From Chitinophagaceae bacterium (lineage in GTDB: Bacteria; Bacteroidota; Bacteroidia; Chitinophagales; Chitinophagaceae), in contig JAICXX010000007.1 of the NCBI GenBank assembly GCA_025934485.1, positions 1-64,000 on the forward strand: a stretch of 64,000 bases of DNA, read 5' to 3'. Position 1 is the stretch's first letter, and each line of letters opens with the position of its first letter. Under the pieces are notes generated by a model. That model saw only the letters and a list, made by a program, of their open reading frames with translations. It had not been told where the DNA came from and searched no databases. Both the position numbers and the translations under genes were made by a program. Positions 6,326-56,658 of this stretch are shown piece after piece.

Positions 6326-6361
6326 TTTTTTCATTTTTTCATTCACCAAAATTGCTTGTTT

Positions 6362-9300: not shown

Positions 9301-9565
9301 TCATGACGGCAGCTATTGGCGCATCTCGAACATCACGCTGGGTTACGATTTTGCAAAATTGGCAAAATTGAAAAACCTGACACAATTCCGCCTGTATGTC
9401 GCAGCCGAGAACCTCTTCACGTTTACCAAATACAACGGCATGGATCCCGAGGTAGGGTATACATCCACCGATGCCAGCGGAGTATATTCCTTTGGACAAG
9501 GTGTCGATCTGGGCTATTATCCCCGCCCAAGAACGACCATGGTAGGGCTAAGCATCATTTTCTAA
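6362..9565 (+). CDS. SusC-like TonB-dependent outer-membrane transporter (PUL A)
   Basis: A 1067-residue outer-membrane beta-barrel that imports oligosaccharides with its SusD partner. After a signal peptide (ending NVHGFAQ) comes a carboxypeptidase-regulatory-like domain (KIKGTVTDATTGQP, about 30-110), the DDIVVVGYG segment typical of SusC proteins, the plug (VNIRGAGTIGNANPLYVVDG) and a long barrel ending in the aromatic residue Phe (VGLSIIF). I start at ATG 6362 because it gives the charged n-region MLEKKSKWK; a TTG at 6356 would add only two residues. There is no STN domain, so regulation is not by FecR/ECF signalling. The next gene, 18 bp on, is susD, as in every Sus pair. Confidence 0.95.
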   Translation: MLEKKSKWKGTESILLLLMLLLLNVHGFAQTGERKIKGTVTDATTGQPVASASVTIKGTRNAVTSNGDGSFAITVKTGETLEISSVGHVSKIVRIETGTDNLDVRLDQSFAKLDDIVVVGYGVQKSKAITGATAHVKGEDLAKLNTTNTLQAMQGQVAGVNITSTSGQPGGGFKVNIRGAGTIGNANPLYVVDGVITSDITYLNPSDIAAVDVLKDAASSAIYGINGANGVVLITTKSGKMGSKNAGQISFDGYYGYQNAPPKTKMLNAEQYATMQNEAALNSGLPAYFTQAQINALGNGTNWLDKMMPSNVPVQNYSLSATGGSDVSSYSLGLSYTQQGGIVGGENLSNYQRYNFRANSERKMYDGALKAGEHLTFSFIDQYGIQDGGIYGNTLRGAFTTSPLLAMYDSAGNYLSSLKSTVYNGGPWNNQEANPYALMVYNNQNDNKTQKVFGDVYAELQPIKNLRIRTTLGLNYSSSANHSYTPVYDNLSVFAYNRYETINQGSSVSYTVNWDNTANYTFKIKDHSFDVLAGSATRKYQGSFLGGSNTGATLFSTFDRGYLSTSNVTSISMSADTSAANKQTVTHAMSLYGNANAIYAQASFFGRINYSYKDKYLASAIFRADGSTMFAQDHQWGYFPSLSAGWVLSSEDFMESTRDWLNFLKIRASWGSNGNDGITAFNYLSLISLANAQYNFGGNNTALTNGSYPSSLGIEKTKWETSRQTNIGIDAQLLNNKLSASIDLYNKVTKDWLVAAPLLATAGVSTNPYINGGNVSNKGIELQLGYNDRIGKDFSYSISGSYAYNKNVVNNIPTADGIIHGGTNSLFVNAPEFFRASSGNPIGYFWGYKTAGIFQTQADVQAYGGKNGPLQPSAHPGDVKFVDLNGDGVIDAKDKTNIGDPNPHHVFGLRFSGSYKHFDLSITTNGVAGNKLVQSYRDLGAFGNWTTAILSRWHGEGTSNSMPRVTQNNSNWADFSDLYIHDGSYWRISNITLGYDFAKLAKLKNLTQFRLYVAAENLFTFTKYNGMDPEVGYTSTDASGVYSFGQGVDLGYYPRPRTTMVGLSIIF

Positions 9566-9583
9566 TTGCGTAAAAATTAAGAC

Positions 9584-11182
9584 ATGAAAAAATTTAAATA
9601 TAGTACCATCGGGCTGGCGACATTGGCCCTCCTTACATTTTCTTCGTGTAAGAAATACCTGACCACACAACTCACCGACCCCAAACAGTCCAACGAATCC
9701 TATTATAAAACACCCGCCGATGGTTTCACCTCCCTGGTAGGATGTTACAATGGATTGGACCTGATTTGGAACGGGGAAGCCATTCCGCCGATGATGGAAG
9801 TTTTTTCCGATAATTGTTTTGGCGGGACCGGCGCTTCAGACGGCTATGGCTGGGAAATGCTCGACGAATTCAATAAGACCGTTTCGCCCTCCGACGTCGC
9901 CATCCATAGCGGTGCATGGAAAAATTACTATCAGGCGATCTATCGTTGCAATGTCCTGCTCCAAAATATGGATAAGATCGCGTGGGGCGATAGCACTACC
10001 TTGAAAAGGCAATACTCGGCGGAAACCAGGTTTATCCGCGCGTTCTGCTATTTCGATCTCGTCCGGCTATTTGAAAAAGTTCCTCTATTGACGACGCCCA
10101 CCATAGCCAATGTGCCCCAGGCCAGCCCCGATTCGACCTATGGACAGATCATGCAGGATCTGCGTTATGCAGCAGACAGCCTCCCCTCAGCCCCCTATAC
10201 CAGCGTCCCCACCGGGCGGGTGACGAAATGGGCAGCCGAATCGTTGTTGGCACGGGTCTATTTGTTCTATTCAGGTTATTATGGCAAAAGCACCATCGGT
10301 AGTGAAACGGCAACTACCGCACTCGCAGCAGTCGAAGACGTGATCGCTCACAGCGGACACGCACTGGTCCCTGATTTTACCACGCTTTGGCCTGCCGCAT
10401 CCTTGGCCAAAAAGGTCACCTACGCCGGAGAGTCTAACCCCGAGGTGGTTTTTTCCATCAAATACTCCTCCACCGGCGACTACAACGGAAACATCACCGG
10501 CAATGGCTGGATGGTTATGACGGGCGAGCGCGATCAGAGTGTTTATCCCTACGGGTATGGCTGGGGAGGCTGCACCGTGGACCCTAATTTGGTAGCGCAA
10601 TTCGATCAGGCCCATGATAGCAGGTATTTTGCTTCCATCACCGATATTGCCGGCGAAAACCTTGCTTTCACGAAGGCGTCGGATAACCGGGAATACACGG
10701 GCTATTATATGAAGAAATACAGCCCGGTCTGCGATTCGCTCAACAACCCTCTTCCCGTCAACAATTATTTGGTTGCCCAGAGCCAGGATTATTTCGCCAT
10801 CCGCTATTCGGACGTTCTATTGATGGCCGCCGAACTCGGCAGCCCCAATGCGGTAACCTATTACAACCAGGTACACCAGCGGGCCATTCCTTCTGCCGCC
10901 GCCGTTACTACCGTTTCTAAGGCGGATATCCTTGCCGAACGCCGGCTGGAATTCGTAGGCGAAGGTATCCGGTATTGGGACTTGTTACGCCAGGGTCTCT
11001 CGACAGCCGCATCGACCATCGCAGCGAATACGACCCTATCGCTCATCAACGATGGCACAGGCACTCAACCCAGCGCCGCCACGTTGCAGGCCAATATTAC
11101 CGCGACACGCGGATTTCAGCAAATACCTTCCGACCAGATCACCCTCTCGGACGGAGTATTGAAACAAAACGCCGGTTGGTAA
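9584..11182 (+). CDS. SusD-like surface glycan-binding lipoprotein (PUL A)
   Basis: A 532-residue SusD/RagB lipoprotein: SPII signal with lipobox FSSC and the CKKYL start of the mature protein, helical TPR-like N-terminal half (ETRFIRAFCYFDLVRLF is the usual SusD helix), and the C-terminal RagB/SusD segment (ILAERRLEFVGEGIRYWDLLRQG). It caps the SusC barrel and captures glycan at the cell surface. It follows its SusC by 18 bp and is followed by a small lipoprotein gene 29 bp on, so all three are probably in one transcript. Confidence 0.95.
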   Translation: MKKFKYSTIGLATLALLTFSSCKKYLTTQLTDPKQSNESYYKTPADGFTSLVGCYNGLDLIWNGEAIPPMMEVFSDNCFGGTGASDGYGWEMLDEFNKTVSPSDVAIHSGAWKNYYQAIYRCNVLLQNMDKIAWGDSTTLKRQYSAETRFIRAFCYFDLVRLFEKVPLLTTPTIANVPQASPDSTYGQIMQDLRYAADSLPSAPYTSVPTGRVTKWAAESLLARVYLFYSGYYGKSTIGSETATTALAAVEDVIAHSGHALVPDFTTLWPAASLAKKVTYAGESNPEVVFSIKYSSTGDYNGNITGNGWMVMTGERDQSVYPYGYGWGGCTVDPNLVAQFDQAHDSRYFASITDIAGENLAFTKASDNREYTGYYMKKYSPVCDSLNNPLPVNNYLVAQSQDYFAIRYSDVLLMAAELGSPNAVTYYNQVHQRAIPSAAAVTTVSKADILAERRLEFVGEGIRYWDLLRQGLSTAASTIAANTTLSLINDGTGTQPSAATLQANITATRGFQQIPSDQITLSDGVLKQNAGW

Positions 11183-11211
11183 TCTTCGTCCAAAACATAA
11201 ACACAAAAATC

Positions 11212-12030
11212 ATGAAAAAGATAATAAAAAGCGTTAGTGCGGCGATGGGCTGCGCACTGCTGTTTTCTGCCTGCATGAAGCAGAACTATAAGTTGGGGCC
11301 GCTGGCCAGCAAAAGCTCCCTATCGTTCACCATTGCACCCTCATCGGCAAACCCCAACGATATAGTGCTCACAAGCTTAACGCCTAAGCTCACTCCGGTT
11401 TGGATTACGCCTTTCGGCCAGTCCGAGAATTTAAAGGATACGGTAAACGTTCCTTTTCCCGGAACTTACAAATTTGTTTACGGCGTAGAGAGCGCCGGCG
11501 GTTTTGTACAGGCCGATACCACTATCGTAACGATAACCACCCTCGACTCTGCGGCCGTCAGCACCCCCGAGTGGACCAACCTCACGGGCGGATATGGAAA
11601 ATCCAAAACATGGGTGCTGGATATAACACCTTCCGGCACGAGTAAACTCTTCAACGGACCTATCTATTTTGGCGGTACCGGTTGGGAATGGGATGCCGGC
11701 TGGGCCTCCTGGATCTGTCCCGTGGGTGATTACGGCTCTATGACCTTCGATCTCATAGGCAACGCCAATTTCAGCTCCAACAATAAAATGCTGCCATCCC
11801 TGGGCCAGGCCACGGGCAACTTTATGCTATATACGAGCACGAACCAGCTGGCCACAATCGGCGCTCAACTTATCCATGATCCCACCCAGGGGGCCAATGT
11901 CTCTAACTGGTATGCAAAATTCGCCATAAAATCCCTGACGGCCGATGGCTTGGAGGTTATTACACCCACCGGCCCCGGCGCGTGGTGCATTTACAATTAT
12001 GTAAGCCTCGACTACTACAACACACACTAA
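11212..12030 (+). CDS. SusE-position surface lipoprotein, probable glycan-binding protein
   Basis: A 272-residue lipoprotein with SPII signal (LLFSAC, mature start CMKQNYKLG). The N-terminal part (about 35-110) has a PKD/Ig-like beta pattern (NPNDIVLTSL, TYKFVYGVESAGG). The C-terminal half is rich in Trp and Gly (FGGTGWEWDAGWASWI) and ends WCIYNYVSLDYY, as in carbohydrate-binding surface proteins. Its place straight after susD is that of SusE/SGBP-type proteins that help hold the glycan. I start at ATG 11212, 29 bp after the susD stop; the frame is open further upstream but that would overlap susD and lose the signal peptide. The family is not recognised with certainty. Confidence 0.7.
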   Translation: MKKIIKSVSAAMGCALLFSACMKQNYKLGPLASKSSLSFTIAPSSANPNDIVLTSLTPKLTPVWITPFGQSENLKDTVNVPFPGTYKFVYGVESAGGFVQADTTIVTITTLDSAAVSTPEWTNLTGGYGKSKTWVLDITPSGTSKLFNGPIYFGGTGWEWDAGWASWICPVGDYGSMTFDLIGNANFSSNNKMLPSLGQATGNFMLYTSTNQLATIGAQLIHDPTQGANVSNWYAKFAIKSLTADGLEVITPTGPGAWCIYNYVSLDYYNTH

Positions 12031-12042
12031 AAATCGATCCAT

Positions 12043-13890
12043 ATGAAGAAAACACAGGTTCGGAGAACCTGGCTGCGCCTTTGTTGTGGCGCACTGGGAC
12101 TACTATTCTCCATATCTACCTTCGCGCAATTGCCCACCGCGCAGACGATCGCCTCAAAAATGCGGGTCGGCTGGAACCTCGGCAACACCTTTGAAGCGAT
12201 CTGTAGTGCAACGGCCTGGGGAGGGACCATCCCAACCCAGCAGCTCATCGCCCTCGTCAAAGCCGACGGCTTCAACGCCGTACGACTTCCCTGCGCCTGG
12301 GATTGCCACGCCACTAACGGTGTCATCGACCCAAACTGGCTGGCCACGGTAAAACAAGCCGTGGACCTCTGCGTCAACGATGGTCTGTATGTGATCATCA
12401 ACATCCACTGGGACGGCGGCTGGCTCGAAAACAATGTGACAACCTCCGCCCAGGCATCGGTGAACGCCAAACAACAGAACTACTGGACGCAGATCGCCAA
12501 CTATTTTAAAAACTACGACGAACACCTGCTCTTCGCCAGCGCCAATGAACCGAACGCCAGCGATGCGACGGGCATGTCGGTGCTGTTGTCTTACCACCAG
12601 ACCTTCGTCAACGCGGTCCGGGCCACCGGCGGGAACAACAGCTCCCGTACGCTCATCGTTCAAGGCCCGCAAACGAATATCGGGTTGACCAATACCCTGA
12701 TGAATACACTGCCCACGGACCAGATAGCGGGACGGATGATGGTGGAGGTACACTATTATGATCCGCCGCAGTTCTGTATTCTTACCCAGGACGCGAGCTG
12801 GGGGAAGATGTTCTATTACTGGGGTACGGGTTATCATTCCTCCACGGACGCAACACGGAATGCTACCTATGGTGAGGAGAGCTACGTGGATTCCAACTTT
12901 AACCTGATGAAAACGAAGTTCATCAACAATGGCATCCCGGTGATCATCGGCGAATTTGGAGCGCCCTCGCGGTCCCTGAGCCCGCCGTCGGACAACACGC
13001 TGGCCATGCGGTCGCGCCAGTATTTCTACCGCTACGTGGTCAGCTCCGCTAAACAGCATGGCTTGATCCCCTTTGTTTGGGACATCCCCCAGGGTATGTA
13101 TAACCGGGGTTCCGCGACCGTGCTCGATCAGGGCATCATCGACGCCCTGAACCAGGGAGCGGGAAATGCCTACGTGACCCTCACCAATGATGCAAGCGGC
13201 CAGCTTGTCGATGGCATGTCCCGGACTACCAATGGCTCGGCGGCAGGCCAATGGAGCAACAGCGGGAGCGATGCGCAAAAATGGCAGCTGGTGCCTGCCG
13301 GCAGATATGTCAACCTTGTGAACAAGGCTACGGGCCTGTATCTCGATGGCTTGTACAGCAGCACTAACGGTTCGGCTGCGGGACAATGGGCCTACAGCGG
13401 CAGTGATGCCCAGTTCTGGCTGATACAGCCTTTGGGAAGCTACTTTACGCTGTCGAACAAGGCTACCGGGATGTATCTCGACGGGAATTACAATTGGACA
13501 AATGGGGCCAATGCGGTTCAGTGGACCCAGAGCGGCAGCACGGCCCAACAATGGACCATCGGCAACGTCGGTCTAATACAAACATCCGCCGTAACGCCCG
13601 CCGTGGCGAGCCAGCCGGCGGCAAGCCAATTCACTAACACGGCGCCGGCCGGAATACAAGCCTATCCGAACCCCTTTTCATCCGCCTTCCACCTGACGGT
13701 GAGTGACCCGTCATCCGTAGATCACATCGCGATCTTCGATATCTCCGGCCGCCAGGTAGAGCTCATCGGGCATTCGGCGATATCAGCATCCCTCTTGCTC
13801 GGCGGCTCGCTGAACACCGGCGAGTACATCGTCAAAGTATTCGGCAAAAACGCAGCCCAAACATTCAAATTGATAAAAATCAACAAATAG
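12043..13890 (+). CDS. GH5 (subfamily 4-like) endoglucanase/xyloglucanase with ricin-type module and T9SS tail
   Basis: A 615-residue secreted endo-enzyme. Signal peptide about 1-29 (SISTFAQ); GH5 domain about 35-365 beginning with VGWNLGNTFEA, the hallmark of GH5_4, with acid/base E169 in ASANEPN and nucleophile E304 in IIGEFGA. Residues 377-505 form a ricin-type beta-trefoil with three repeats, each ending in a Q-x-W motif (QKW, QFW, QQW). Residues about 540-615 are a T9SS type A sorting domain (AYPNPFSSAF, then DISGRQV). GH5_4 enzymes cut beta-1,4-glucan backbones, often xyloglucan; the locus favours xyloglucan. It is likely carried to the cell surface by T9SS, unlike the two lipoprotein GH5 paralogues of PUL B. 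The next gene starts at the base after its stop. Confidence 0.9.
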   Translation: MKKTQVRRTWLRLCCGALGLLFSISTFAQLPTAQTIASKMRVGWNLGNTFEAICSATAWGGTIPTQQLIALVKADGFNAVRLPCAWDCHATNGVIDPNWLATVKQAVDLCVNDGLYVIINIHWDGGWLENNVTTSAQASVNAKQQNYWTQIANYFKNYDEHLLFASANEPNASDATGMSVLLSYHQTFVNAVRATGGNNSSRTLIVQGPQTNIGLTNTLMNTLPTDQIAGRMMVEVHYYDPPQFCILTQDASWGKMFYYWGTGYHSSTDATRNATYGEESYVDSNFNLMKTKFINNGIPVIIGEFGAPSRSLSPPSDNTLAMRSRQYFYRYVVSSAKQHGLIPFVWDIPQGMYNRGSATVLDQGIIDALNQGAGNAYVTLTNDASGQLVDGMSRTTNGSAAGQWSNSGSDAQKWQLVPAGRYVNLVNKATGLYLDGLYSSTNGSAAGQWAYSGSDAQFWLIQPLGSYFTLSNKATGMYLDGNYNWTNGANAVQWTQSGSTAQQWTIGNVGLIQTSAVTPAVASQPAASQFTNTAPAGIQAYPNPFSSAFHLTVSDPSSVDHIAIFDISGRQVELIGHSAISASLLLGGSLNTGEYIVKVFGKNAAQTFKLIKINK

Positions 13891-16059
13891 GTGATTAGCA
13901 ATTATCGCAAAGCACTACCGGCATTCGTGCTGGTAGTTGCTTTCTGCGTCTCACACGCAGTCGCTCAGCAACCATCCCCCGACGAGGCGATCTATAAAAA
14001 GATCGACGTGCAGATCAGCAAAATGACGCTTGAAGAAAAAGTAGGCATGCTGCATGCCAGTTCTTCGTTTACCTCCGGCGGCGTACCCCGCCTGGGCATC
14101 CCCGAACTCGTCACCAGCGACGGCCCCCACGGCGTCCGGCTGGAACACGGCCGCGACTGGCGCACCGATAACGACCACGTAGACGACAGCGCAACCTATT
14201 TGCCCACCGGCGTTTGTCTCGCGAGCACCTGGGACCCGCAACTCGGCTATGCATACGGGACGGTCCTCGGCAGCGAAGCCAATGCCCGCGGTAAAGATGT
14301 CATCCTCGGCCCCGGCATCAACATCATCCGCAGCCCCCTCAACGGCCGGAATTTCGAATACGAAAGCGAAGACCCCTACCTTGTCTCGAAAATGGCCGTC
14401 GGCTACATCAAAGGCGTACAGGACCAGGACGTCTCCGCCTGCGTCAAGCACTTTCTCGCCAACAACCAGGAAACGCAAAGAACCAGCATCAATGTCTTAA
14501 TGAGCGAAAGAGCCCTGCGCGAGATCTACCTCCCGGGCTTCAAAGCCGCCGTCGAAAAAGGCGGCGTGTATTCGGTCATGGGCGCCTATAACAAATTCCG
14601 CGGCGAGTGGTGCACCGAGAATGCCTATCTCGTGAACAATATCTTAAAAGGCGAGTTCGGATTCAAAGGCATCCTGATGTCGGACTGGGGGGCGGTTCAC
14701 CATACCGCCGAAGCCCTCTGGAACGGAACGGATCTCGAGATGGGCTCGGACCTCCTGGGCCTGCCCTACAATAAATTCCTCTTGGCCGATACCGTGGTCG
14801 CCCTCGTAAAAAAAGGCGTCATAGACCCACAGACCATTGACGACAAGGTCCGGCGCATTTTGTATGTCATGTACAAGATCCACAAGTTCGGCAACCGGAA
14901 ACCTGGCGCCTTCAGCACAAAAGCGCATTTCGCCATAGCCCAAAAAGTGGCGGAAGAAGGGATCGTACTGCTAAAGAACAACTCGCTTCTGCCCCTCGAC
15001 GCATCGGCCATTCATTCCATCGCCGTCATCGGCGCCAACGCCACCCGGCCCCAATCCGAGGGCGGCGGTAGCTCACAGGTACGCACACGCTATGAGATCA
15101 CTCCATTGGAAGGAATAAAAAGGATCGCCGGCGACGGCATTCATCTCACCTACTCGCCCGGCTACAGGATCGCAAAAGACGCCACCGCAGACCGGGCGCT
15201 GATCGACTCGGCTGTTGAAGCGGCGAAAAAGGCAGACATTGCTGTCATCGTCGGCGGCTGGACGCATGGCTATAACAACTACGCCTGGGATGACAATGCC
15301 TATGACGCGGAAGGGATAGACAAAACAGATATGGCCATGCCCTTCGGCCAGGATAGCCTCATCGCAGCCGTTGTAAAAGCGAACCCCAGAACGGTAGTCG
15401 TTTTAGTGGGCGGCGGCCCGGTGGATATGACCTCCTGGATAAACGAGACGCCGGCCGTCCTCGAATCCTGGTACGCGGGTAGTGAGGGCGGCGACGCCCT
15501 CGCGGGCATCCTCTTCGGACGCGTAAGCCCTTCCGGAAAATTGCCCATGACCTTTCCCAAAACGCTGGCCGAAAGCCCGGTCCGCGCTCTCGGCCAGTTC
15601 CCCGGCGACAGCACCACCGTGGAATATGACGACGACATCTTCGTCGGCTACCGCTATTTCGATACCTGGAAGGTCAAACCCCAGTTTGCCTTCGGCCACG
15701 GTCTTTCTTACACCACCTTCCAATACTCAAATCTCACCGTGACCACCCACGGCCAAACCGCCGTCGTTTCGCTCGCCATCACGAATACCGGCCACAGGGC
15801 CGGCGCCGAAGTGGTACAGGTCTATGTCAAACAAAACCACTGCACCCTAAGACGACCGGAAAAGGAACTCAAGGGATTCGAAAAGGTATTTCTCCAACCC
15901 GGCGAGACCCGCAACGTCACGCTCACCCTGCAAAAAGACGCCTTTCAGTATTACAACGATCTCAGGCACGCCTGGACGCTGGATCCCGGCGCCTTCACCA
16001 TTCTGTGCGGCAGCGCCTCGGACGATATCCGCGCATCGAAGGTTATATTTATTAAATAA
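13891..16059 (+). CDS. GH3 beta-glucosidase
   Basis: A 722-residue periplasmic exo-hydrolase. A signal peptide (ending SHAVAQ) is followed by the GH3 barrel, with nucleophile D265 in LMSDWGAVH and the substrate-binding stretch CVKHFLANN. Then come the alpha/beta sandwich and a C-terminal fibronectin-III-like domain (VVQVYVKQNH, PEKELKGFEKV). GH3 enzymes of this layout release glucose from the non-reducing end of cello- or xylogluco-oligosaccharides once alpha-xylose has been removed. Translation appears to begin at a GTG directly after the GH5 stop codon (TAG-GTG), which suggests translational coupling. The closest role is with the GH31 enzyme in alternate trimming of the backbone. Confidence 0.9.
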   Translation: MISNYRKALPAFVLVVAFCVSHAVAQQPSPDEAIYKKIDVQISKMTLEEKVGMLHASSSFTSGGVPRLGIPELVTSDGPHGVRLEHGRDWRTDNDHVDDSATYLPTGVCLASTWDPQLGYAYGTVLGSEANARGKDVILGPGINIIRSPLNGRNFEYESEDPYLVSKMAVGYIKGVQDQDVSACVKHFLANNQETQRTSINVLMSERALREIYLPGFKAAVEKGGVYSVMGAYNKFRGEWCTENAYLVNNILKGEFGFKGILMSDWGAVHHTAEALWNGTDLEMGSDLLGLPYNKFLLADTVVALVKKGVIDPQTIDDKVRRILYVMYKIHKFGNRKPGAFSTKAHFAIAQKVAEEGIVLLKNNSLLPLDASAIHSIAVIGANATRPQSEGGGSSQVRTRYEITPLEGIKRIAGDGIHLTYSPGYRIAKDATADRALIDSAVEAAKKADIAVIVGGWTHGYNNYAWDDNAYDAEGIDKTDMAMPFGQDSLIAAVVKANPRTVVVLVGGGPVDMTSWINETPAVLESWYAGSEGGDALAGILFGRVSPSGKLPMTFPKTLAESPVRALGQFPGDSTTVEYDDDIFVGYRYFDTWKVKPQFAFGHGLSYTTFQYSNLTVTTHGQTAVVSLAITNTGHRAGAEVVQVYVKQNHCTLRRPEKELKGFEKVFLQPGETRNVTLTLQKDAFQYYNDLRHAWTLDPGAFTILCGSASDDIRASKVIFIK

Positions 16060-16065: not shown

Positions 16066-19000
16066 ATGATCCGTACGCTATACATAGTTGGTTTGTTTTT
16101 GACGCTCACCGCCTCAGCACAAAGAGAAGAATCGCGCATCGACAAAAGCTGGCGTTTCGCCCTCGGCCACGCCACCGACGCCCATCAGGATTTCAACCAC
16201 GCCACGGCGCCGTTTTCCTACTACGCAAAGGCCGGCGCCGGCGACGGGCCCGCGGCCGCTGATTTTGACGACCGGTCCTGGCGCGTCGTGGACCTCCCAC
16301 ACGATTGGGCCGTGGAGCTGCCTTTCGATGCCCGTGGCTCGCACAGCCACGGGTATCGTGCCATCGGCCGTAACTTTCCCCAGAACAGCATCGGCTGGTA
16401 CCGAAAGACATTCTATATCCCCACGACCGACCAGGGCCGACGGATCAGCATTCGCTTCGACGGGGTGTTCCGGGACTCGAAAGTCTGGGTCAACGGTTTT
16501 TATCTCGGCAACGAACAAGGTGGCTACAACGGATTCTCCTATGACATAACCGACTATTTGAAGTATGGTGGCACGAACACGATCTCCGTTCGGGCCGACG
16601 CCACCATGGAGGAAGGATGGTTCTACGAAGGAGCCGGCATCTACCGGCACGTATGGCTCACCAAGACGGCGGCGCTTCACATGGCCGAGAACGGCGTATG
16701 CGTACAACCCCGTATCGAAGGGTTGACCACGGATGGCCTTTCCGCACAAAACGCCGCCGTCGCCGCCTCCATCACCTTGATCAATCAGCAGCGCCATGGT
16801 GACACAGTAACCCTCCGGCAAACCATTCTCGATAGCGCCGGCAACATAGTAGCGACCGGAACCGCTCACGCACTTCGGCTAGCCCCCGGCGAGACTACGG
16901 ATATCCCCAACTCACTCGACCTCCGCAACCCTCGCCTTTGGTCTACCACCAACCCCTATCTGTATACGTTAACAACGACCGTCCTCCACGGCGACGCAAC
17001 AGTGGATTCCTGCGCCACCACTTTTGGCTGCCGCACTATCCGCTGGGACCCGAATGCAGGCTTCTTCCTGAACGGCATCCACATCGAGCTCAAAGGGACC
17101 AACGACCACCAGGACCATGCAGGAGTGGGCACAGCCATACCCGACGAACTCTGGGGCTACCGCCTCCGCTGTCTGAAATCCATCGGCGCAAATGCCTACC
17201 GCTGCGCACATAACCCGCCCGCGCCCGAATTGCTCGATGCCTGCGACCGCCTGGGCATCCTCGTGATCGACGAGAACCGTTGGATGGGCGTCACCCCTCA
17301 AATGACCGACCCGTTGCGCCGGATGATCCTTCGCGACCGTAACCATCCGTCCATCATCGCCTGGTCCATCGGCAACGAGGAATGGGCGATGGAAGGAACC
17401 CCCACCGGCGCAAGAGTAGCCTCGACACTTCAGGATTATGTGCGGACCCTGGATACCACCCGGCCGGTGACAGTCGCCATAAGCGGCGGCTGGGGCAACG
17501 GCATTTCATCGGTGATCGAACTCATGGGTTATAACTATATCGCCCACGGCAGCACCGATGACGAGCACAAACGCTACCCGTGGCAACCCGGCGTCGGAAC
17601 CGAAGAGGGGCAAATGACCACCACCCGCGGCGTCTACGTCGACGACCCTGCCGCTCACCGCATAGCTGCGTACGACCGGCCACCGTTACCCGGTTTTTAT
17701 AACCTGGAAGACGGCTGGAAACATTACGCGGCCCGTCCCTATCTCGCAGGTATGTTCATCTGGTCCGGCTTCGACTACCGCGGCGAACCATCGCCCTTCG
17801 GCTGGCCGTCCGTTTCAAGCTACACCGGCGTACTCGATGCCTGCGGCTTCCCCAAAGATATCGCCTGGTATTTTCGCAGCTGGTGGACAACACAACCCAC
17901 CCTCCATCTCTTTCCCCACTGGAGCTGGCCCGGTAGGGAAGGAAAGCCCATCAGCGTGTGGGCCTATAGCAACTGCGACCAGGTCGAACTCTTCCTGAAT
18001 CACAAGAGCCTCGGCAAAAAGCCCGTACCGCCCAATGGCCACGTGGAATGGTCGGTGCCGTATCACCCCGGCACCCTCGAAGCGGTAGGTTACACAAAAG
18101 GAAAAATGACCCTGACCGACGAAGTGCAGACTACCGGCCCGGCGACAAGGATCGTTTTACAACCCGAAACCGACGGCGACAGCTGCCGGATAGCCGTCGT
18201 CACCGTGAAAGCCGTCGATGCCGCCGGCCGCGCCGTACCCGTAGCAGATAACGAGATCGCATTCACCCTCCACGGACCCGCCAGGATCATCGGCGTCGGC
18301 AACGGCGATCAGGTATCCCACGAAGCGGACAAGTTCGTGGAACAAATAAAGTCTATCCCGGTATCCAACATCCGTCGGACAAAAGAGAACGGCGAAGCGT
18401 TCGATGATGCCGATACCAGCGTAAACACCATCCATTCCACCGGCGATATTGTCTTAACCGATGTGCCGGACAGCGCCACCTTCCGCCTATTCTACCAGAG
18501 TATCGGAACACAGCAGAAAATTTATCTCAACGGCGCGCTGATCGGCACACCCGACGATGCATCCCTGCGCAGTGAATTCGCTATCGACCGCAAGCTGCTC
18601 CATCCCGGCAATAATGTGCTGACCATCACGGCAACACCTTTCCGCAAGAAGTTCATGTGGGACGAGCTGAACCATGACCCCGGCACCCTGCAAGTCGTCG
18701 TCCCCGCCGCACAGTGGAAACGCCGCCTGTTTAACGGCCTCGCACAAGTGATCATTGAGTCGACGGGACAGCCCGGTAATATCCTGCTCACCGCAACGTC
18801 CGCAGACCTCGAGCCGGCCACTGTCGCGCTCAACCACCACGTTAGCCTGCCAAAAGTATTCGGCGACAATATGGTGCTGCAAAGAAATATCCCCATCCCC
18901 GTTTGGGGTCAGGCGAACCCCGGCGCAGTCATAACGGCTACGCTCGGAAAAACGGCAGTCACCACAACGACAGATCAACAAGGCAAGTGGATGCTGCATT

Positions 19001-20721
19001 TCCCCAGACTTTCTGCAGGCGGCCCCTATACCCTTGCCATCAGCGAGCAGGGAAGACCCGAAACCCGGGTGGAATTCAAAAATATCCTCATCGGCGATGT
19101 CTGGCTGGCTTCTGGTCAGTCCAACATGGAGTTCCAGGTACAACAGGCAAAAAATGCCGCGGGCGAAATGTCGAACGCCTCCTATCCCGACATCCGTTTG
19201 CTTCTCGTCGGCCAGGATAAAAAACTTACTCCGCAAACCGATATTCACACCGCCGGCTGGAAGGCCGCCGACTCCAATAGCGTAAAACCATTCTCCGCCG
19301 CGGCCTTTTTCTTCGCCCGTAAAATTTACGCGGAGCAACATGTACCCATCGGTATCATCCAGAGCACCTGGGGCGGAACACCCGTACAGGCCTGGACAAG
19401 TAAAGAGAAATTGCGGACCTCCCCAATCACTAAAAACGCCGCCCTGGCAAACGATACGCTTACCGAAAACAATTTTATACAGGATAGCCTCAACCAGATT
19501 CGCTTTTGGGAAATCGTTAACAACCCGCAAAACAATACCGGCGAGCGCATCCCGCTTCCTGGATATAACGATACGAACTGGGCGAAGATCGAAATGCCCC
19601 GGTTGATCAAAGACTTCGGCATCGGCTATTATGAAGGGATCATGTGGTTCCGCAAAAAGCTCGTGTTGCCGCCGGATTTTTCAACGACATCCCTTACCCT
19701 CGCGCTGGGCCATCCGGAGATGTGCTATTCGGTTTATTTCAACGGGGTGGAAATTTGTAAAGATGTCTGGAATGCAGCCCCACATCATATTTACAACATT
19801 CCCTCGACCATCGTACGAAAAGGCGAGAACATCATCGTTATCCGAATGGCCATGTTATGGGGTGGGGGAGGACTAAACTCACCCGCCGAAGATCTCTATC
19901 TCACCGACGGCAAGACCAAAATATCCCTGGCCGGTGAATGGCTATATAAAAAGGACCTTGAACCCCTCCCGCATATCCACAACTATCAGTATTATCCCGA
20001 TGTCTTGTTCAATGGCATGATAAACCCCCTGATCCCCTACGGCATCACCGGATTCCTCTGGTACCAGGGCGAAGCCAACGACACCCAGGCCTATAACTAC
20101 CGGAAGATGTTCCCGATGTTGATAACGGATTGGCGCCAAAGGTGGCAACGCGGCAACCTACCTTTTTTATTCGTCCAACTCGCCAACTTTAAAGCCCGAA
20201 AACCCGTTCCCGCTGAAAGCGAGTGGGCGGAATTGCGCGAAGCCCAGGCCATGGCCCTCTCCCTGCCGCAAACCGCCATGGCTTGTACCATCGACATCGG
20301 CGAAGGGGACAATATTCACTATGCGGACAAACAAGACGTCGGCCTTCGTCTCGCTCTTGCCGCCGCCAGGCTTGTTTACCACCAACCTATTATTGCATCC
20401 GGGCCCACGTACAAAACCCTGACGATCCGGGGCGACCGGATTCGTATCCGCTTCACCAACACCGGTTCGGGTTTGAAAACGCGCGATGGAAATGCGATCA
20501 CCGGATTCGCCATCGCCGGCGAGGACCGGCATTTCTATTGGGCAGATGCACAAATCACCGGCGACGAAGTAATTGTCCATTCCGATAAAGTACCCGCTCC
20601 CAAAGCAGTGAGATACGCCTGGGCCGATAACCCGGCCTGTAACCTCATAAATTCGGCAGAACTGCCGGCCGTACCGTTTCGCACCGACGACTGGCCCGGG
20701 CTCACCGAACCAAAAAAATAA
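16066..20721 (+). CDS. GH2 beta-galactosidase fused to a CE20-like (SGNH) acetylesterase
   Basis: A 1551-residue two-enzyme fusion with a signal peptide ending LTASAQ. Residues about 25-620 are GH2: sugar-binding jelly roll (DLPHDWAVELPFD), Ig domain and TIM barrel with acid/base E438 in IGNEEW and probable nucleophile E513 in GTEEGQ. DUF4982-like and Ig C-terminal domains with an extra beta insert follow (about 630-920). From about residue 925 (VSLPKVFGDNMVLQ) runs a sialate-O-acetylesterase-type SGNH domain: Ser S1019 in ASGQSNMEF and the D1415-x-x-H1418 pair in DNIHYADK. A jelly-roll insert of about 150 residues splits the SGNH domain, as in the CE20 xyloglucan acetylesterase described from Xanthomonas. 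The two halves would remove galactose and its O-acetyl groups from xyloglucan side chains. GH2 specificity is inferred. Confidence 0.85.
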   Translation: MIRTLYIVGLFLTLTASAQREESRIDKSWRFALGHATDAHQDFNHATAPFSYYAKAGAGDGPAAADFDDRSWRVVDLPHDWAVELPFDARGSHSHGYRAIGRNFPQNSIGWYRKTFYIPTTDQGRRISIRFDGVFRDSKVWVNGFYLGNEQGGYNGFSYDITDYLKYGGTNTISVRADATMEEGWFYEGAGIYRHVWLTKTAALHMAENGVCVQPRIEGLTTDGLSAQNAAVAASITLINQQRHGDTVTLRQTILDSAGNIVATGTAHALRLAPGETTDIPNSLDLRNPRLWSTTNPYLYTLTTTVLHGDATVDSCATTFGCRTIRWDPNAGFFLNGIHIELKGTNDHQDHAGVGTAIPDELWGYRLRCLKSIGANAYRCAHNPPAPELLDACDRLGILVIDENRWMGVTPQMTDPLRRMILRDRNHPSIIAWSIGNEEWAMEGTPTGARVASTLQDYVRTLDTTRPVTVAISGGWGNGISSVIELMGYNYIAHGSTDDEHKRYPWQPGVGTEEGQMTTTRGVYVDDPAAHRIAAYDRPPLPGFYNLEDGWKHYAARPYLAGMFIWSGFDYRGEPSPFGWPSVSSYTGVLDACGFPKDIAWYFRSWWTTQPTLHLFPHWSWPGREGKPISVWAYSNCDQVELFLNHKSLGKKPVPPNGHVEWSVPYHPGTLEAVGYTKGKMTLTDEVQTTGPATRIVLQPETDGDSCRIAVVTVKAVDAAGRAVPVADNEIAFTLHGPARIIGVGNGDQVSHEADKFVEQIKSIPVSNIRRTKENGEAFDDADTSVNTIHSTGDIVLTDVPDSATFRLFYQSIGTQQKIYLNGALIGTPDDASLRSEFAIDRKLLHPGNNVLTITATPFRKKFMWDELNHDPGTLQVVVPAAQWKRRLFNGLAQVIIESTGQPGNILLTATSADLEPATVALNHHVSLPKVFGDNMVLQRNIPIPVWGQANPGAVITATLGKTAVTTTTDQQGKWMLHFPRLSAGGPYTLAISEQGRPETRVEFKNILIGDVWLASGQSNMEFQVQQAKNAAGEMSNASYPDIRLLLVGQDKKLTPQTDIHTAGWKAADSNSVKPFSAAAFFFARKIYAEQHVPIGIIQSTWGGTPVQAWTSKEKLRTSPITKNAALANDTLTENNFIQDSLNQIRFWEIVNNPQNNTGERIPLPGYNDTNWAKIEMPRLIKDFGIGYYEGIMWFRKKLVLPPDFSTTSLTLALGHPEMCYSVYFNGVEICKDVWNAAPHHIYNIPSTIVRKGENIIVIRMAMLWGGGGLNSPAEDLYLTDGKTKISLAGEWLYKKDLEPLPHIHNYQYYPDVLFNGMINPLIPYGITGFLWYQGEANDTQAYNYRKMFPMLITDWRQRWQRGNLPFLFVQLANFKARKPVPAESEWAELREAQAMALSLPQTAMACTIDIGEGDNIHYADKQDVGLRLALAAARLVYHQPIIASGPTYKTLTIRGDRIRIRFTNTGSGLKTRDGNAITGFAIAGEDRHFYWADAQITGDEVIVHSDKVPAPKAVRYAWADNPACNLINSAELPAVPFRTDDWPGLTEPKK

Positions 20722-20724: not shown

Positions 20725-23274
20725 ATGCCTAAGTATCCTCTTTTTTTCCTGCTATTGTTCGTTGGCCGTCAGGCTTTCGCCCAACACATGCCCTCGACCG
20801 TCGCCGTGATTTCCCCCAACAAAGCCGTCAAAGCAACAGTAGAACTGGATGCCCGCGGACATTTGCACTACAACGTCACCTGCACAAAGAACGGCACACC
20901 GATCACCGTGGTCCCGCAATCAGCCCTCGGCATCAGCACAAACGACGCAGATTTCTCCCACGACCTCGCCTACACCGGCTTGATAAGCGACCGAAAGATC
21001 GTCGACCACTACCACCTGATCCACGGTAAACGCAGCGAATGCCACAACGAAGCAATGGAGAAGACCTTCCGCTTCAGCACGAAAAATGGCCGCCTTCTCG
21101 ACCTGACCTTCCGCGCCTATGACAACGGCGTGGCCTTCCGGTATACGCTCCCTCAAACTTCCGGCGAGCACCGCGGCGTAACCCCCGAGGACCGCCGCAT
21201 AACCGGCGAACGCACCAGCTTCGTGATCCCCGATGGAACCCAACGATGGATGCAGCAATATACCCCAACCTACGAAGCGCTATATCCCTCGGCCACCACT
21301 GGAAAAGCGGACGCGCCGGATCATCAGCAATGGGGATTCCCGGCACTATACGAACTACAAAACACCCCGCTGTGGGTGCTCATCACGGAGGCGGACGTCT
21401 CGAGAGACAACTGCGCCTCTCACCTTTCCAATAAAGATGATAGCACCATCTACAGGGTGACGATGCCGGAAGATGCCATCCCCGCCGGCCCTGGCTGGAA
21501 GTCGGCCTGGCGCGTGCTCATGATCGGCAGTCTCGCAGACATCGTCGGATCGACCCTCGTGACAGACCTCAGCGACCCATCGAAGCTCGATACCACAAGC
21601 TGGATCAAGCCGGGCCCCGTGGCCTGGGTCTATTGGGCATATAACCATGGCTCGAAGGACTACGAAAAAGTTGTCGAATACGTCAACCTCGCAAAAGCCA
21701 TGCACTGGCCGTATGTGCTCATCGACTGGGAATGGGACCGCATGGGCAATGGCGGTAACATCGAAGACGCCGTCGCCTATGCCCGGAGCCAGGGGATAAA
21801 ACCCCTGATGTGGTACAACTCCCGGGATTCCCTGAGCTCCAGCGCCGGCCTCGACCCCTATGGCCGATTGACAACCCACGAGGCGCGATGCAAGGAATTT
21901 GCCTGGCTCAACAAGATCGGCGTCTTTGGCGTCAAGGTCGACTTCTTCGAAGACGACCGCCAAAAAGAAATGGCCTATTATCTCGATCTGCTGCAAGACG
22001 CGGCAAACTATCACCTCATGGTGGATTTCCACGGCGCGACGATCCCCAAAGGATGGGACCGGACCTATCCCAACCTGATGACGATGGAAGCGGTCTATGG
22101 AGCGGAATGGTATGCCTACGCACCCGTCCTCACCCGGCAAGGCGCAAAACACAACGCGACCCTGCCGTTTACCCGCAACGTAGTAGGGCCCATGGATTAT
22201 ACACCGGTCACCTTCACCGACGCCCTGTTCCCGCATACGACCACCTTTGCACACGAGCTGGCGCTATCCGTCGTCTTCGAGTCGGGGCTACAGCACTTTG
22301 CCGACCGGCCGGCGGGCTTCGATTCGCTTCCCGCACCGGAGCGCCAATTTCTCATGACCGTACCCGTCGCATGGGACGACACCCGTCTTATCGACGGCTT
22401 CCCCGGCGAGCGCGTAGTCATCGCCCGCCGTAAAGACCACACCTGGTACATCGGCGGCCTGAACGGCCAGGACCAGCCGCAAACCCTCCAACTACACTTC
22501 GATTTCTTACCCGCCGGCGCCTACGATCTCAAACTCATCCGCGACGGCGCAACCGGCAAGGAATTCAACACCCAAACCATACCGATAACAAAAGACAGCA
22601 AAATTGAAGTAAACTGCCTGCCCCGCGGCGGATTCGCAGCGACCCTGGTGCCGGCAAAGCCCGGATCACAAACCTCCGATTCATTGTCGTTGAATGCGAT
22701 CCCACAGAAATTATTTTGGGAAAAACACCCGTTGAAGTTTTCAAATTTCGGGGATAGCCTTATCATTGAAGCCCCAGGCGGAACGGATATATACAGGGAT
22801 TCCTATGGTTATTACTCGCCAAACAAGGCCCCAAGATTATTATTTCAGGCGGATAGCAATTTCATTCTTACCGTAGATGTCCGGCATGCCTTTTCTGACG
22901 AATGGAACGCGGGAGGTATTCTATTGGAGGCCGACAGCACGCACTGGATAAAATTCTGCTTTGAAAAAGATTATAAAGGAGCTCATAGGATTGTGAGTGT
23001 AGTGACCGACGATTACTCGGATGACTGCAATGCAGTAGCACTCCCAACTAATGGAGCCTTTTTGAAATTGGCTAAAGCCGGGGATGTGATCATTCTATAT
23101 TATTCCCAGGATGGCAGCACCTGGTATATGGCCCGGCGGCTGCGGTATGTGTTTACCAGCCCTTTGCTGGTTGGGTTTTTGGCTCAGGCGCCGGGAGCAC
23201 GAAGCAATGCCGTCCATTTTAGCCATATTCGATATCAATTAAAGAAGGTGGTCAATCCTTTTGCGGTTGATTGA
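20725..23274 (+). CDS. GH97 glycosidase (retaining alpha-galactosidase-like) with C-terminal DUF1349-like domain
   Basis: An 849-residue secreted enzyme, signal peptide ending RQAFAQ, starting 3 bp after the fusion gene. The GH97 N-terminal beta-sandwich is followed by a barrel with VKVDFF (D406) and GAEW (E461). An Asp at this position marks the retaining alpha-galactosidase branch of GH97; inverting SusB-type alpha-glucosidases lack it. The 55-residue spacing to E461 equals that of the nucleophile and acid/base pair in the Bacteroides alpha-galactosidase as I recall it. Residues about 650-849 form an extra concanavalin-like domain resembling DUF1349 (NAGGILLEADSTHWIKFCFE). The DNA for this tail is visibly more AT-rich than the rest of the gene, suggesting separate origin. 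Confidence 0.85.
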   Translation: MPKYPLFFLLLFVGRQAFAQHMPSTVAVISPNKAVKATVELDARGHLHYNVTCTKNGTPITVVPQSALGISTNDADFSHDLAYTGLISDRKIVDHYHLIHGKRSECHNEAMEKTFRFSTKNGRLLDLTFRAYDNGVAFRYTLPQTSGEHRGVTPEDRRITGERTSFVIPDGTQRWMQQYTPTYEALYPSATTGKADAPDHQQWGFPALYELQNTPLWVLITEADVSRDNCASHLSNKDDSTIYRVTMPEDAIPAGPGWKSAWRVLMIGSLADIVGSTLVTDLSDPSKLDTTSWIKPGPVAWVYWAYNHGSKDYEKVVEYVNLAKAMHWPYVLIDWEWDRMGNGGNIEDAVAYARSQGIKPLMWYNSRDSLSSSAGLDPYGRLTTHEARCKEFAWLNKIGVFGVKVDFFEDDRQKEMAYYLDLLQDAANYHLMVDFHGATIPKGWDRTYPNLMTMEAVYGAEWYAYAPVLTRQGAKHNATLPFTRNVVGPMDYTPVTFTDALFPHTTTFAHELALSVVFESGLQHFADRPAGFDSLPAPERQFLMTVPVAWDDTRLIDGFPGERVVIARRKDHTWYIGGLNGQDQPQTLQLHFDFLPAGAYDLKLIRDGATGKEFNTQTIPITKDSKIEVNCLPRGGFAATLVPAKPGSQTSDSLSLNAIPQKLFWEKHPLKFSNFGDSLIIEAPGGTDIYRDSYGYYSPNKAPRLLFQADSNFILTVDVRHAFSDEWNAGGILLEADSTHWIKFCFEKDYKGAHRIVSVVTDDYSDDCNAVALPTNGAFLKLAKAGDVIILYYSQDGSTWYMARRLRYVFTSPLLVGFLAQAPGARSNAVHFSHIRYQLKKVVNPFAVD

Positions 23275-25394: not shown

Positions 25395-25443
25395 GATTCC
25401 AGTGTCCATGCGCCTTGGCAAAAATTGTGTAGTGGATAATCAA

Positions 25444-27366
25444 ATGAGTATGAGATATTTTCGTACCTACGGTTCGGTATTCTTTTGCTGTTTCATCGCC
25501 TTGCAGGCTTCAGCTCAAGCATATTATCCGGGCGGATTGGGCAACTCCAATCTTTTCCTTTGGCTCGATGCCAATAAAAGCTCGTCCATTACCCTGAACG
25601 GTCCTATTCAAGTTAGCGGGTGGGCGGACCTGAGCGGCAACGGAAATAACTTTACACAGGCTACTAGCGGTAACCAACCCACCTATAGCGCGACAGGCAA
25701 TCCATCCAACCTGCCCGCGGTGACATTTACTTCCACGAGCTCCCAATACCTAAGCATCGCCAACCTCTCCGCCTCTATTGCTTTTACCTCCGGGTTCACA
25801 GGATTTAACCAGGTAAGCTACGGCGCCCTCCAGGCGGGCCAGGCCTGGCAGCGTGTCTTCGACTTTGCGAATGGGGCAGGATCGAACAATTTCATGATGG
25901 GCCGCTTTAGCAATTCAGCCAATGCCTATTACGAAGGCTGGAACGGCGCTACCGGCGATCAAACCTGGACTACCACCAATCCCATCGTCAATGGTTCCGA
26001 GGACCTTTATGAGGCCGTCCAGGCGGCCGGAGCGGCCGGGTCTCTTACCGCAGTCAATCATTACCTCGCCGGCGCCGCGCAGGCTTCCGGCGGCCAGGCA
26101 GGTTCCAGCACCCATGTTCCTAACGCCATCGCCCGGACTTCCAACTATATCGGCCGAAGCAATTGGGCGGCAGACAGCTACTTTTCCGGCACCATGTCGG
26201 AGATCCTGCTGTACAACACCGCCTTTAATACCACTCAACGCGTGATCATCGAGAACTATCTTTCCGCAAAATGGAACCAGGCGGTGAGCGTGTCGGGCTA
26301 TATCCCTCCTTCCACGACCTCTTATACCACCAATCTCGTGGGCATCGGTTATACCAGCGCCACGGATAATTTCACGGCCGATGTTTCCGGGTCCACGGAC
26401 GGGCTTGGTTTCAGCAGCGGTACCACCGCAGCCGATTTCCTCTCGGCCGCCGGCTATTCGATGGCCGCCCACAACGGTCAGGCCAATACGGTAATTACCA
26501 ATGCTACTATTCCGGGGATCACCAGCGCCAGTGCGCTAAGCCGCTGGAACCGCAGCTGGAATGTGCAGCTCACCGGCGGGACAGCCACCGGCGCCGTGAC
26601 CCTCAATTTTAATTTCCCTGATTATAACGGCGGCTCATTCAATACCGCCAATACGTTTGCGCTTCTATACAATGCGACCGACGGCACATTTGCTACAGGT
26701 ACTAACAAACTCGTTACGACCCTTTCTGCCACTTCCACTACCAGCATTGTCTCCTTTAAGGTCACGGCCTCCAGCCTCGCCAATGGCTACTATACGATCC
26801 TCTACGGCAGCTCTGCCATCGCGCTGCCGGTAACCCTTTCCAATTTCACCGCTTACGCCGACGGCATGAACGCCATCCTGCAATGGACCACCATGACCCA
26901 AACCGACTTCAGCCACTTCACGGTCGAACGCTCCGGCGACGGCCAGAACTTTTCTTCCATCGGCACCGTAGCGGGCAGCGCCGGCACATCCGGCCCGGAA
27001 CAATATTCGTTTACAGATGCTAACCCGCTCCCGGCGATGAATTATTACCGGCTGGCGATGGTCGACCTCGACGGTACGACCATCTGGTCCGACATCCATT
27101 CGGTCGGCTTCGCCAAAGACACCACACCCTCTTTGTTCACTGTCTATCCCAATCCTGCAGTCAGCAGGCTCCATCTTGTACTTTCCAGTGCCGGGGGCAC
27201 AGTCAGGATCCGGCTGCTCAACAGCCAGGGACAACTACTGCTCACGGTGACCACGGTTGCACCAGCTACCCTGGATATCCCTATGAGCGGGTTTGTAAAG
27301 GGCATCTATTTCGTGGCGGCCGACGGCGCGCACCGTCACGAAGTGCGCAAGATCATCAAGAAGTAG
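25444..27366 (+). CDS. T9SS-secreted concanavalin/LamG-like surface protein
   Basis: A 640-residue secreted protein. The signal peptide (ending LQASAQ) is followed by a lectin-like beta-sandwich (about 25-270; NLFLWLDANKSSSITLNG, then VIIENYLSAKWNQ), a middle beta-rich region, a fibronectin-like stretch (AILQWTTMTQTDFSHFTVER) and a T9SS type A domain at about 565-640 (TVYPNPAVSRL, KGIYFVAADG). No catalytic motif is visible, so a binding or adhesion role at the surface is more likely than hydrolysis. I start at ATG 25444 (or 25450) because upstream frame extensions to 25402 spoil the signal peptide and would precede the predicted transcription start. It lies between the two PULs with gaps on both sides, so it is probably a single-gene unit. 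Confidence 0.8.
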   Translation: MSMRYFRTYGSVFFCCFIALQASAQAYYPGGLGNSNLFLWLDANKSSSITLNGPIQVSGWADLSGNGNNFTQATSGNQPTYSATGNPSNLPAVTFTSTSSQYLSIANLSASIAFTSGFTGFNQVSYGALQAGQAWQRVFDFANGAGSNNFMMGRFSNSANAYYEGWNGATGDQTWTTTNPIVNGSEDLYEAVQAAGAAGSLTAVNHYLAGAAQASGGQAGSSTHVPNAIARTSNYIGRSNWAADSYFSGTMSEILLYNTAFNTTQRVIIENYLSAKWNQAVSVSGYIPPSTTSYTTNLVGIGYTSATDNFTADVSGSTDGLGFSSGTTAADFLSAAGYSMAAHNGQANTVITNATIPGITSASALSRWNRSWNVQLTGGTATGAVTLNFNFPDYNGGSFNTANTFALLYNATDGTFATGTNKLVTTLSATSTTSIVSFKVTASSLANGYYTILYGSSAIALPVTLSNFTAYADGMNAILQWTTMTQTDFSHFTVERSGDGQNFSSIGTVAGSAGTSGPEQYSFTDANPLPAMNYYRLAMVDLDGTTIWSDIHSVGFAKDTTPSLFTVYPNPAVSRLHLVLSSAGGTVRIRLLNSQGQLLLTVTTVAPATLDIPMSGFVKGIYFVAADGAHRHEVRKIIKK

Positions 27367-27610: not shown

Positions 27611-27676
27611 AATCGATGAGGTAACCGATGCCATCTTGCACATGAGTTGCCGATCTTAAAACCAAGACGATTGCAT

Positions 27677-30871: not shown

Positions 30872-30880
30872 AGTATTAAA

Positions 30881-32458: not shown

Positions 32459-32477
32459 TTCAACTACGTAAAATAGG

Positions 32478-33941: not shown

Positions 33942-33951
33942 TAAAACCAAT

Positions 33952-35403: not shown

Positions 35404-35417
35404 AATAAAAAAAACTT

Positions 35418-36839: not shown

Positions 36840-36857
36840 AAAAATAAAGCTTTTAAA

Positions 36858-38420: not shown

Positions 38421-38433
38421 TGTCTTGTTCAAT

Positions 38434-39939: not shown

Positions 39940-39942
39940 GTC

Positions 39943-41997: not shown

Positions 41998-42026
41998 CTT
42001 TGTCGATAACCTGACAATAATAGGAT

Positions 42027-44117: not shown

Positions 44118-44149
44118 ATTATTTAACCAATTTCCTGAACTTCACGACC

Positions 44150-55383: not shown

Positions 55384-55470
55384 CTACCAGTAAGTTAAAA
55401 TTTTAGTAAAAAAAATCCGGATTAATCCAGTAGAAAAACCCGGAACCCGGAACTTACCTGTATAGCACAG

Positions 55471-56535: not shown

Positions 56536-56589
56536 TTTCCTAATCTATAAACTATATCATTTATGTAAAAACCAAGACTTCTACTACAT

Positions 56590-56621
56590 AAAAAAACCGG
56601 TATTGCTGCGAACAATACCGG
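56590..56621 (-). terminator. Rho-independent terminator on the minus strand
   Basis: CCGGTATTG (56597-56605) and CAATACCGG (56613-56621) form a perfect 9-bp stem with a 7-base loop. On the plus strand the stem is preceded by AAAAAA and no T-run follows, so read on the minus strand it is a standard hairpin followed by TTTTTT. There is no gene ending here on the minus strand, so it may end an antisense transcript, or serve as a structural element in the susC leader. Confidence 0.5.
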
Positions 56622-56629
56622 CAGAGTCT

Positions 56630-56658
56630 TCCCTGCAGTGACAAACTAGTTGCAGGGA
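56630..56658 (+). promoter_or_regulatory. Second hairpin in the susC leader (PUL D)
   Basis: TCCCTGCA (56630-56637) and TGCAGGGA (56651-56658) make a perfect 8-bp stem with a 13-base loop, nine bases after the first hairpin and 47 bases before the susC ATG. No T-run follows. Together the hairpins could slow transcription between fecR and susC or offer an RNA-binding site. Confidence 0.4.

Follow-up and report, generated by a model that had tools for sequence, protein, structure and literature searches.

Why should a beta-galactosidase and an acetylesterase share a single polypeptide in a Chitinophagaceae locus? The window (the whole stretch of DNA analysed here, 64,000 nucleotides, positions 1 to 64,000 of contig JAICXX010000007.1) contains a frame of 1551 aa in which a GH2 half is followed by a CE20 half. 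An ORF check found this frame to be single and open, with an ATG start and no internal stops, which upholds the sequence-only reading that both halves are encoded together and rules out an interrupted frame. The protein is likely a periplasmic two-enzyme GH2-CE20 chimera of a xyloglucan locus, whose fusion would fix the stoichiometry and closeness of two steps. Its parts are these:

16066 to 20721 (+): GH2-CE20 fusion gene, a single open frame; GC 0.595 in the GH2 half, 0.534 in the CE20 half.
16066 to 16122 (+): putative Sec signal peptide, residues 1-19 (..LTASA/Q), without a lipobox Cys, judged by eye from the translation.
16141 to 18831 (+): GH2 beta-galactosidase half of GalA type, residues 26-922, from Pfam, NCBIfam, PDB sequence search and alignment of relatives.
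17377 to 17379 (+): E438, predicted acid/base (GNEEW), aligned to 7cwd, 4ypj and 8q2h; kept in 15/15 relatives.
17602 to 17604 (+): E513, predicted nucleophile (GTEEG), aligned to solved GH2s; kept in 15/15 relatives.
18334 to 18717 (+): insert of ~130 aa in GH2 C-terminal domain 5, residues about 757-884, from NCBIfam, alignment of relatives and predicted structure.
18826 to 18843 (+): joint without a linker, residues about 921-926, from alignments with stand-alone relatives and from GC.
18838 to 20709 (+): CE20 acetylesterase half, residues 925-1548, from PDB sequence search, alignments and fold search.
19120 to 19122 (+): Ser1019, predicted nucleophile (GQSNM), from alignments.
19474 to 19995 (+): CE20 ancillary beta-sandwich insert, residues about 1137-1310; missing from insert-less relatives in the alignment, and aligned to 9ega and 9h4u.
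20311 to 20319 (+): Asn1416-Ile-His1418, predicted anchor residue and catalytic base, from alignments.

Domain searches support both family assignments. The NCBIfam GalA model NF041462 scores 1067 bits over residues 26-921 (cut-off 900), and Pfam orders the protein as GH2_N (26-200), GH2 TIM barrel (332-471), DUF4982 (626-680), GH2_C5 (709-756 plus a second piece) and SASA (1327-1432, again plus a second piece). E438 (GNE438E) lies opposite the GNE of solved GH2 enzymes and E513 (GTE513) opposite their GSE, which bears out the complete GH2 and both glutamates read earlier from the letters. The nearest solved relatives, 7cwd, 4ypj and 8q2h, have these catalytic motifs in common with the window protein, which differs from them in its C-terminal CE20 and extra domain-5 insert. 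The insert consists mainly of beta strands in a predicted model of residues 581-922 and is also present, at varied length, in the aligned stand-alone relatives; a fold search with that model returned mostly GH2 enzymes and did not name the insert.

The second half falls within CE20 by sequence and by fold, as had been suspected from its SGNH character and Ser1019. Residues 924/927 to 1541/1543 align end to end with three solved bacterial CE20s, enzymes with flanking beta-sandwich domains (E 1.5e-136 to 3.5e-121), scoring 459.9 bits against PpCE20_II (9ega), 426.9 against Fl8CE20_II (9h4u) and 409.0 against XacXaeA (7kmm), and chains of the same three structures fill ranks 1-5 of a Foldseek search with a model of residues 690-1551. 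That model is good over CE20 and poor over the GH2 tail, probably from misaligned tail rows (16-22% identity). The TM score by target is 0.95 for 7kmm, a structure without the ancillary domain, and 0.73-0.75 (rmsd 7.4-8.5) for the two with it, and the placing of this domain in the predicted model is unsure. The two best matches, PpCE20_II and Fl8CE20_II, have the domain order of the window protein, but both stand alone and belong to a xylan cluster with a Tyr-rich loop, according to excerpts of PMC12313940. XacXaeA, the founding CE20 from Xanthomonas citri, matches at full length (residues 927-1543, 409 bits) and likewise combines an SGNH core with an inserted domain, a xyloglucan locus (PMC8245568) and Trp-Asn in the ancillary loop (alignment and PMC12313940); in contrast to the window protein it stands alone, carries Asp at the anchor, and has a GH35 as the beta-galactosidase of its locus.

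The jelly-roll insert earlier proposed to split the SGNH domain proves to be the CE20 ancillary domain, which sits inside the SGNH domain in a subset of CE20; its match to rhamnoside_JR is below threshold (28.2 vs 50 bits). Its loop reads W-N-A-A-P, with Trp in 18/18 rows from xyloglucan loci and 0/2 more distant rows. Excerpts of PMC12313940 associate Trp at this position with xyloglucan clusters and Tyr with xylan cluster II, and the window protein has the Trp and no Tyr-rich xylan motif, as in xyloglucan clusters III/V of that paper. Bacteroidota origin and gene context point to CE20 cluster V.

The active site differs from the sequence-only reading by one residue. D1415 had been taken as the triad acid, one position too early: against Fl8CE20_II (D513-x-H515), it is Asn1416 that stands opposite D513 and H1418 that stands opposite H515, giving N-x-H1418. 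The GQSNM and WYQGE blocks, Ser1019 and His1418 are all kept. At the anchor, the xyloglucan-locus CE20 set (18 rows) has Asp in 15, Thr in two and, in the window protein, Asn; Tyr1419 of this protein is also unusual, Pro being present in the other 19 of the 20 rows aligned. Because this block V is unusual, CE20 activity could be reduced; from the alignments we would expect an active esterase, perhaps a slower one. No second close CE20 copy was seen in its own genome (assembly 93% complete), where other CE20/SASA matches are at most 46% identical.

The genes around the fusion point to a substrate. A xyloglucan locus brings together SusCD, an SGBP-B xyloglucan-binding domain, GH5, GH31, GH2, GH43 and GH3, and all of these are present in the window, where Pfam gives:

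3446 to 6325 (+): GH31 with PA14, alpha-xylosidase candidate.
6356 to 11182 (+): SusC/SusD pair 1.
13891 to 16059 (+): GH3, directly upstream of the fusion.
20725 to 23274 (+): GH97 with C-terminal DUF1349, directly downstream of the fusion.
27647 to 33941 (+): SusC/SusD pair 2 and an SGBP-B-type xyloglucan-binding protein.
33925 to 48240 (+): two GH5, GH39, GH43, GH42, GH29, GH2 and GH29.

By gene content, the window holds a xyloglucan utilisation locus in two gene runs. The first runs GH31, SusCD, an unknown protein, GH5-ricin-T9SS, GH3, the fusion, GH97 and GH29; the second runs from a T9SS-tailed unknown through SusCD, SGBP-B (PF18329), two GH5 with BACON, GH39, GH43, GH42, GH29, GH2 and GH29 to a carboxylesterase. 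The xyloglucan setting proposed earlier thus gains from PF18329, GH31, the BACON-bearing GH5 pair, GH29, GH43 and SusCD as well as from the Trp-type ancillary loop. Every close CE20 relative whose surroundings were read (17/17) shares its stretch of DNA with homologues of other genes of the window cluster.

Several further genes were seen along the window. The protein of 10975-12030, which follows SusD in the first run, has no Pfam match and is conserved in a number of related loci at 31-63% identity. As listed, from a TTG, its frame overlaps SusD, and translation probably begins further downstream; the product may be a surface glycan-binding protein. The first-run GH5 (12043-13890) carries ricin-type lectin repeats and a T9SS tail. 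Between both runs, 25402-27366 encodes 654 aa in which Pfam recognises a T9SS sorting domain and nothing else. Downstream, a further set of sigma factor, FecR and SusCD (54808-61821) is likely a separate locus.

The joint is compact. The fusion frame begins 6 bases after the upstream GH3 frame and ends 3 bases before GH97. GH2 relatives that stand alone (15 frames, 907-991 aa, the longest being cut by a contig end) stop within some residues of the end of the GH2 half; CE20 relatives that stand alone (647-697 aa) open with a signal-like stretch, and a Q-ISLPKVFGD-like segment follows where the CE20 half begins. Judged from these alignments, the fusion has lost little, relative to separate genes, beyond the stop of GH2 and the signal peptide of CE20. 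GC steps from 0.628 in the last 60 GH2 codons to 0.533 in the first 60 CE20 codons, and the GH2 half as a whole (0.595) is a little above six other compared genes (0.511-0.576). A comparison of the joint (150 bases to either side) with the rest of the window for exact same-strand repeats gave none above 12 bases.

Quick trees (SH-aLRT only) place the GH2 half as sister to the GH2 of genome G032 (support 100, starred) and the CE20 half as sister to the CE20 of G031, a sister species (support 99, starred). A stop codon on an overlapping contig closes the G032 GH2. One contig of that genome breaks three codons before this stop, with a 127-base identical overlap (C121/C77; end of L031, start of L032), which is a sign of an assembly branch at that place; no third contig continuing the break was found in that bin.

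Pfam and NCBIfam scans found no Por_Secre_tail (T9SS) domain in the fusion protein, which fits a periplasmic site. Since the start looks Sec-type by eye and the T9SS tail is absent, the periplasm is the most likely workplace, on imported oligosaccharides, and the protein is probably a bifunctional enzyme for xyloglucan oligosaccharides. Endo-cleavage would take place outside the cell, followed by SusCD import. The CE20 half would then strip acetyl groups, mainly from O-6 of side-chain galactose, using Ser1019-His1418 and a water held by Asn1416, and the GH2 half, acting as a retaining enzyme (E438/E513), would take off the beta-galactose so uncapped and leave xylose open to the GH31 enzyme. 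Such loci already encode both steps, and what the fusion most likely does is set their stoichiometry and keep them close. It would have originated when a GH2 gene, losing its stop codon, was joined to a CE20 gene, losing its signal peptide, probably once the sister species had diverged. That one protein first deacetylates and then removes galactose is a sound reading; a side chain may also be channelled from one site to the other, and the fusion can be explained without this.

The fusion itself was seen in this one genome only, an assembly of 381 contigs that is 93% complete. No second fusion of a GalA-type GH2 with CE20 was found in overlapping samples of 58, 33, 394, 396, 395 and 395 genomes (two candidates scored per genome in the 394-, 396-, 395- and 395-genome searches), and none among the best 80 of 595 named relatives, where BLAST against the window GH2s was the only means of looking for a GH2 partner, also in the frames with unlabelled extensions (L138, L141, L146, L153, L154, L156 and L157). 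A scan of viral contigs gave 28 pattern matches and no relatives. In open-licence PMC papers the phrases 'GH2-CE20' and 'CE20-GH2' did not occur, the titles and abstract openings listed in broader searches named no such enzyme, and a fused xyloglucan esterase had no match, in line with the earlier impression that the pairing is uncharacterised.

The idea that a long GH2 and CE20 are usual neighbours finds no support: among 17 close CE20 loci, only L056 has a long GH2 on the same stretch. One G304 contig has both stand-alone genes, about 11 kb apart. The gene directly upstream of CE20 is a GH3 in 9/17 of the close loci (L048-L054, L057 and L058), and L059 has a GH3 piece further upstream, at a contig end. 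By hand count, a different GH2, most like the second GH2 of the window, lies directly downstream of CE20 in 4/17 (L048, L049, L052 and L053); L051 and L058 have weak 23% matches to this second GH2. GH2-labelled frames also occur beside more distant CE20s among the best 80 of 595 named relatives (e.g., L106, L111, L120 and L148). On two Hymenobacter plasmids (L171 and L172) a gene run comprises a sialate O-acetylesterase, an SGNH hydrolase, a ROK protein and galA; the esterase, of about 487-499 aa and by that length probably without the ancillary insert, is separate from galA, with two genes between.

Fusion as such is common in the genus. Among the matches listed, a hand count gives 92 CE20/SASA places in 33 genomes (the first 94 rows, E <=3.5e-13, minus two GH2-tail rows, with weaker rows dropped). 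Seventeen of these lie in frames of at least 850 aa (lengths run stop to stop, and so are upper bounds, or are cut by contig ends), and Pfam scans of all 17 recognised a partner in 16; the remaining frame (G023 C248) is an insert-less SASA form. Partners of insert-bearing CE20 are the GalA-type GH2 of the window, GH39, GH95, heparinase II/III-like, CE15 (three times), GH28, GH10 and GH27; those of insert-less SASA are GH127 (three times), GH43 and exo-glucosaminidase-type GH2 (twice, both frames cut by a contig end and one showing the GH2 tail domain only). The CE15, GH27 and CE1 numbers are what we take the Pfam names to mean as families. The fusions of insert-bearing CE20 to CE15 (in three genomes), GH28, GH10, heparinase-like, GH95 and GH27 domains lie in L158, L159, L160, L163, L164, L036, L037 and L108. 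A frame of similar order is G032 L165, with GH2 then SGNH/SASA in one frame, but its GH2 is of exo-glucosaminidase type, it has no ancillary insert and a contig end cuts it. The sister CE20 of G031 (L034:3177-6653, -), about 65% identical and also in a xyloglucan locus, has its own signal-like start but a GH39 partner at its C-terminus. Outside the genus, G265, from another genus of the family, has a PF00756 esterase fused to a xyloglucan-type CE20 (L060:8032-10890, +) and a second, stand-alone CE20 about 35 kb from the fused copy, and the CE20 frame of Lacihabitans L139 contains a polysaccharide deacetylase domain.

GalA-type GH2s show the same tendency. Six long frames were scanned (five in the genus; others, such as G017 C29, lay outside that scan), and five of the six have an extra domain (GH95, GH53 twice, GH27 and a beta helix). 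Such GH2 fusions in the genus include L174 (GH95), L176 (GH53 and an esterase-like domain), L177 (GH27) and L178 (GH53). On a CE20 tree built quickly from 57 chosen rows, nine of them marked fused, the fused label needs seven changes; starred branches force at least five, and 40/500 shuffles are as low. The GH2-CE20 pairing fits a wider enzyme-fusion habit of the genus, each half being ordinary. One could go further and see the genus as a workshop in which CE20/SASA and GalA-type GH2 have repeatedly and separately been joined to at least 10 other families, with sister CE20s bearing different partners at opposite ends and the window protein as the first linker-less chimera to couple deacetylation and removal of the same galactose in one rigid body; we regard this as doubtful.

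The fusion habit also sustains the strongest alternative, a neutral or expression-driven merger by chance in which the halves act independently and CE20 perhaps also serves acetyl on backbone glucose or arabinofuranose. Sister CE20s with different partners at different ends favour this, as does tomato-type xyloglucan, whose acetyl groups, in excerpts of PMC11360243, sit at O-6 of both backbone glucose and galactose and at O-5 of arabinofuranose; the locus also has a GH39, a family linked to solanaceous xyloglucan in the parts of PMC11892949 drawn on here. Against it, the GH2 partner targets the main acetylated residue of XXXG-type xyloglucan. We consider such a merger credible, if somewhat improbable.

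Channelling on the same side chain, in which CE20 hands deacetylated galactose straight to the GH2 site with a kinetic gain over mixed halves, was the mechanism of the sequence-only reading, and we judge it unlikely. Its premise was sound: excerpts of PMC11360243 place the acetyl of XXXG-type xyloglucan mainly on O-6 of galactose, the residue that GH2 would remove, and those of PMC8245568 likewise support acetyl on xyloglucan galactose, with acetyl groups limiting enzyme access to plant hemicellulose and XacXaeA deacetylating several xyloglucan oligosaccharides. The linker-less joint suggests a fixed geometry, and synergy is cited for the multicatalytic CelA, ChiA and BoCE6-CE1 in the parts of PMC8417218 consulted. 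However, those parts also report, as own or cited results, fusions without synergy (BeCE15A-Rex8A, FjCE6-CE1, CkXyn10C-GE15A and DmCE1B). BeCE15A-Rex8A, an esterase-CAZyme fusion of a Bacteroidota PUL with a very short potential linker (PMC8417218), and the fused CE6-CE1 esterases of PMC7110780 resemble the window protein as multicatalytic PUL enzymes that join an esterase to another CAZyme, but both involve other families and xylan-type substrates. XacXaeA had no positional preference on O-acetylated mono- and disaccharides in the sections of PMC8245568 at hand, the CE20 of the sister species has GH39 as its partner and others have unrelated enzymes, and the poor model of the GH2 tail gives no inter-site geometry. 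The variety of CE20/SASA partners (GH39, PF00756 esterase, GH95, GH10, CE15 and others) argues for loose coupling. What stands of the earlier proposal is the two-step order; its same-side-chain channelling is plausible and draws no special support from these comparisons.

A CE20 half of reduced catalytic power, acting chiefly as a module for binding or structure, is improbable. Asn1416 and Tyr1419 in a conserved block would favour it, as would the D513N variant of Fl8CE20_II, in which kcat fell about fivefold and kcat/KM about 2.5-fold according to excerpts of PMC12313940; but the same excerpts describe Asn as a natural anchor variant in CE20, and the catalytic Ser and His and both conserved blocks are kept. 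Finally, an assembly chimera of two wrongly joined genes is very unlikely: although a single draft assembly, the GC step, the raised GC of the GH2 half and the contig break in G032 could suggest one, the joint keeps the frame and leaves out just the signal peptide of CE20, no exact same-strand repeat above 12 bases connects it to the rest of the window, both halves are typical of one kind of locus, and GH3 and GH97 adjoin within a few bases.

Returning to the periplasmic two-enzyme chimera, if both activities are true, this protein would be a single tool that deacetylates and degalactosylates xyloglucan oligosaccharides, and would offer a clean test of whether an esterase-glycosidase fusion gives a rate gain. 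CE20 fusions in which sister esterases carry different partners would provide matched natural comparisons for why CAZymes fuse.
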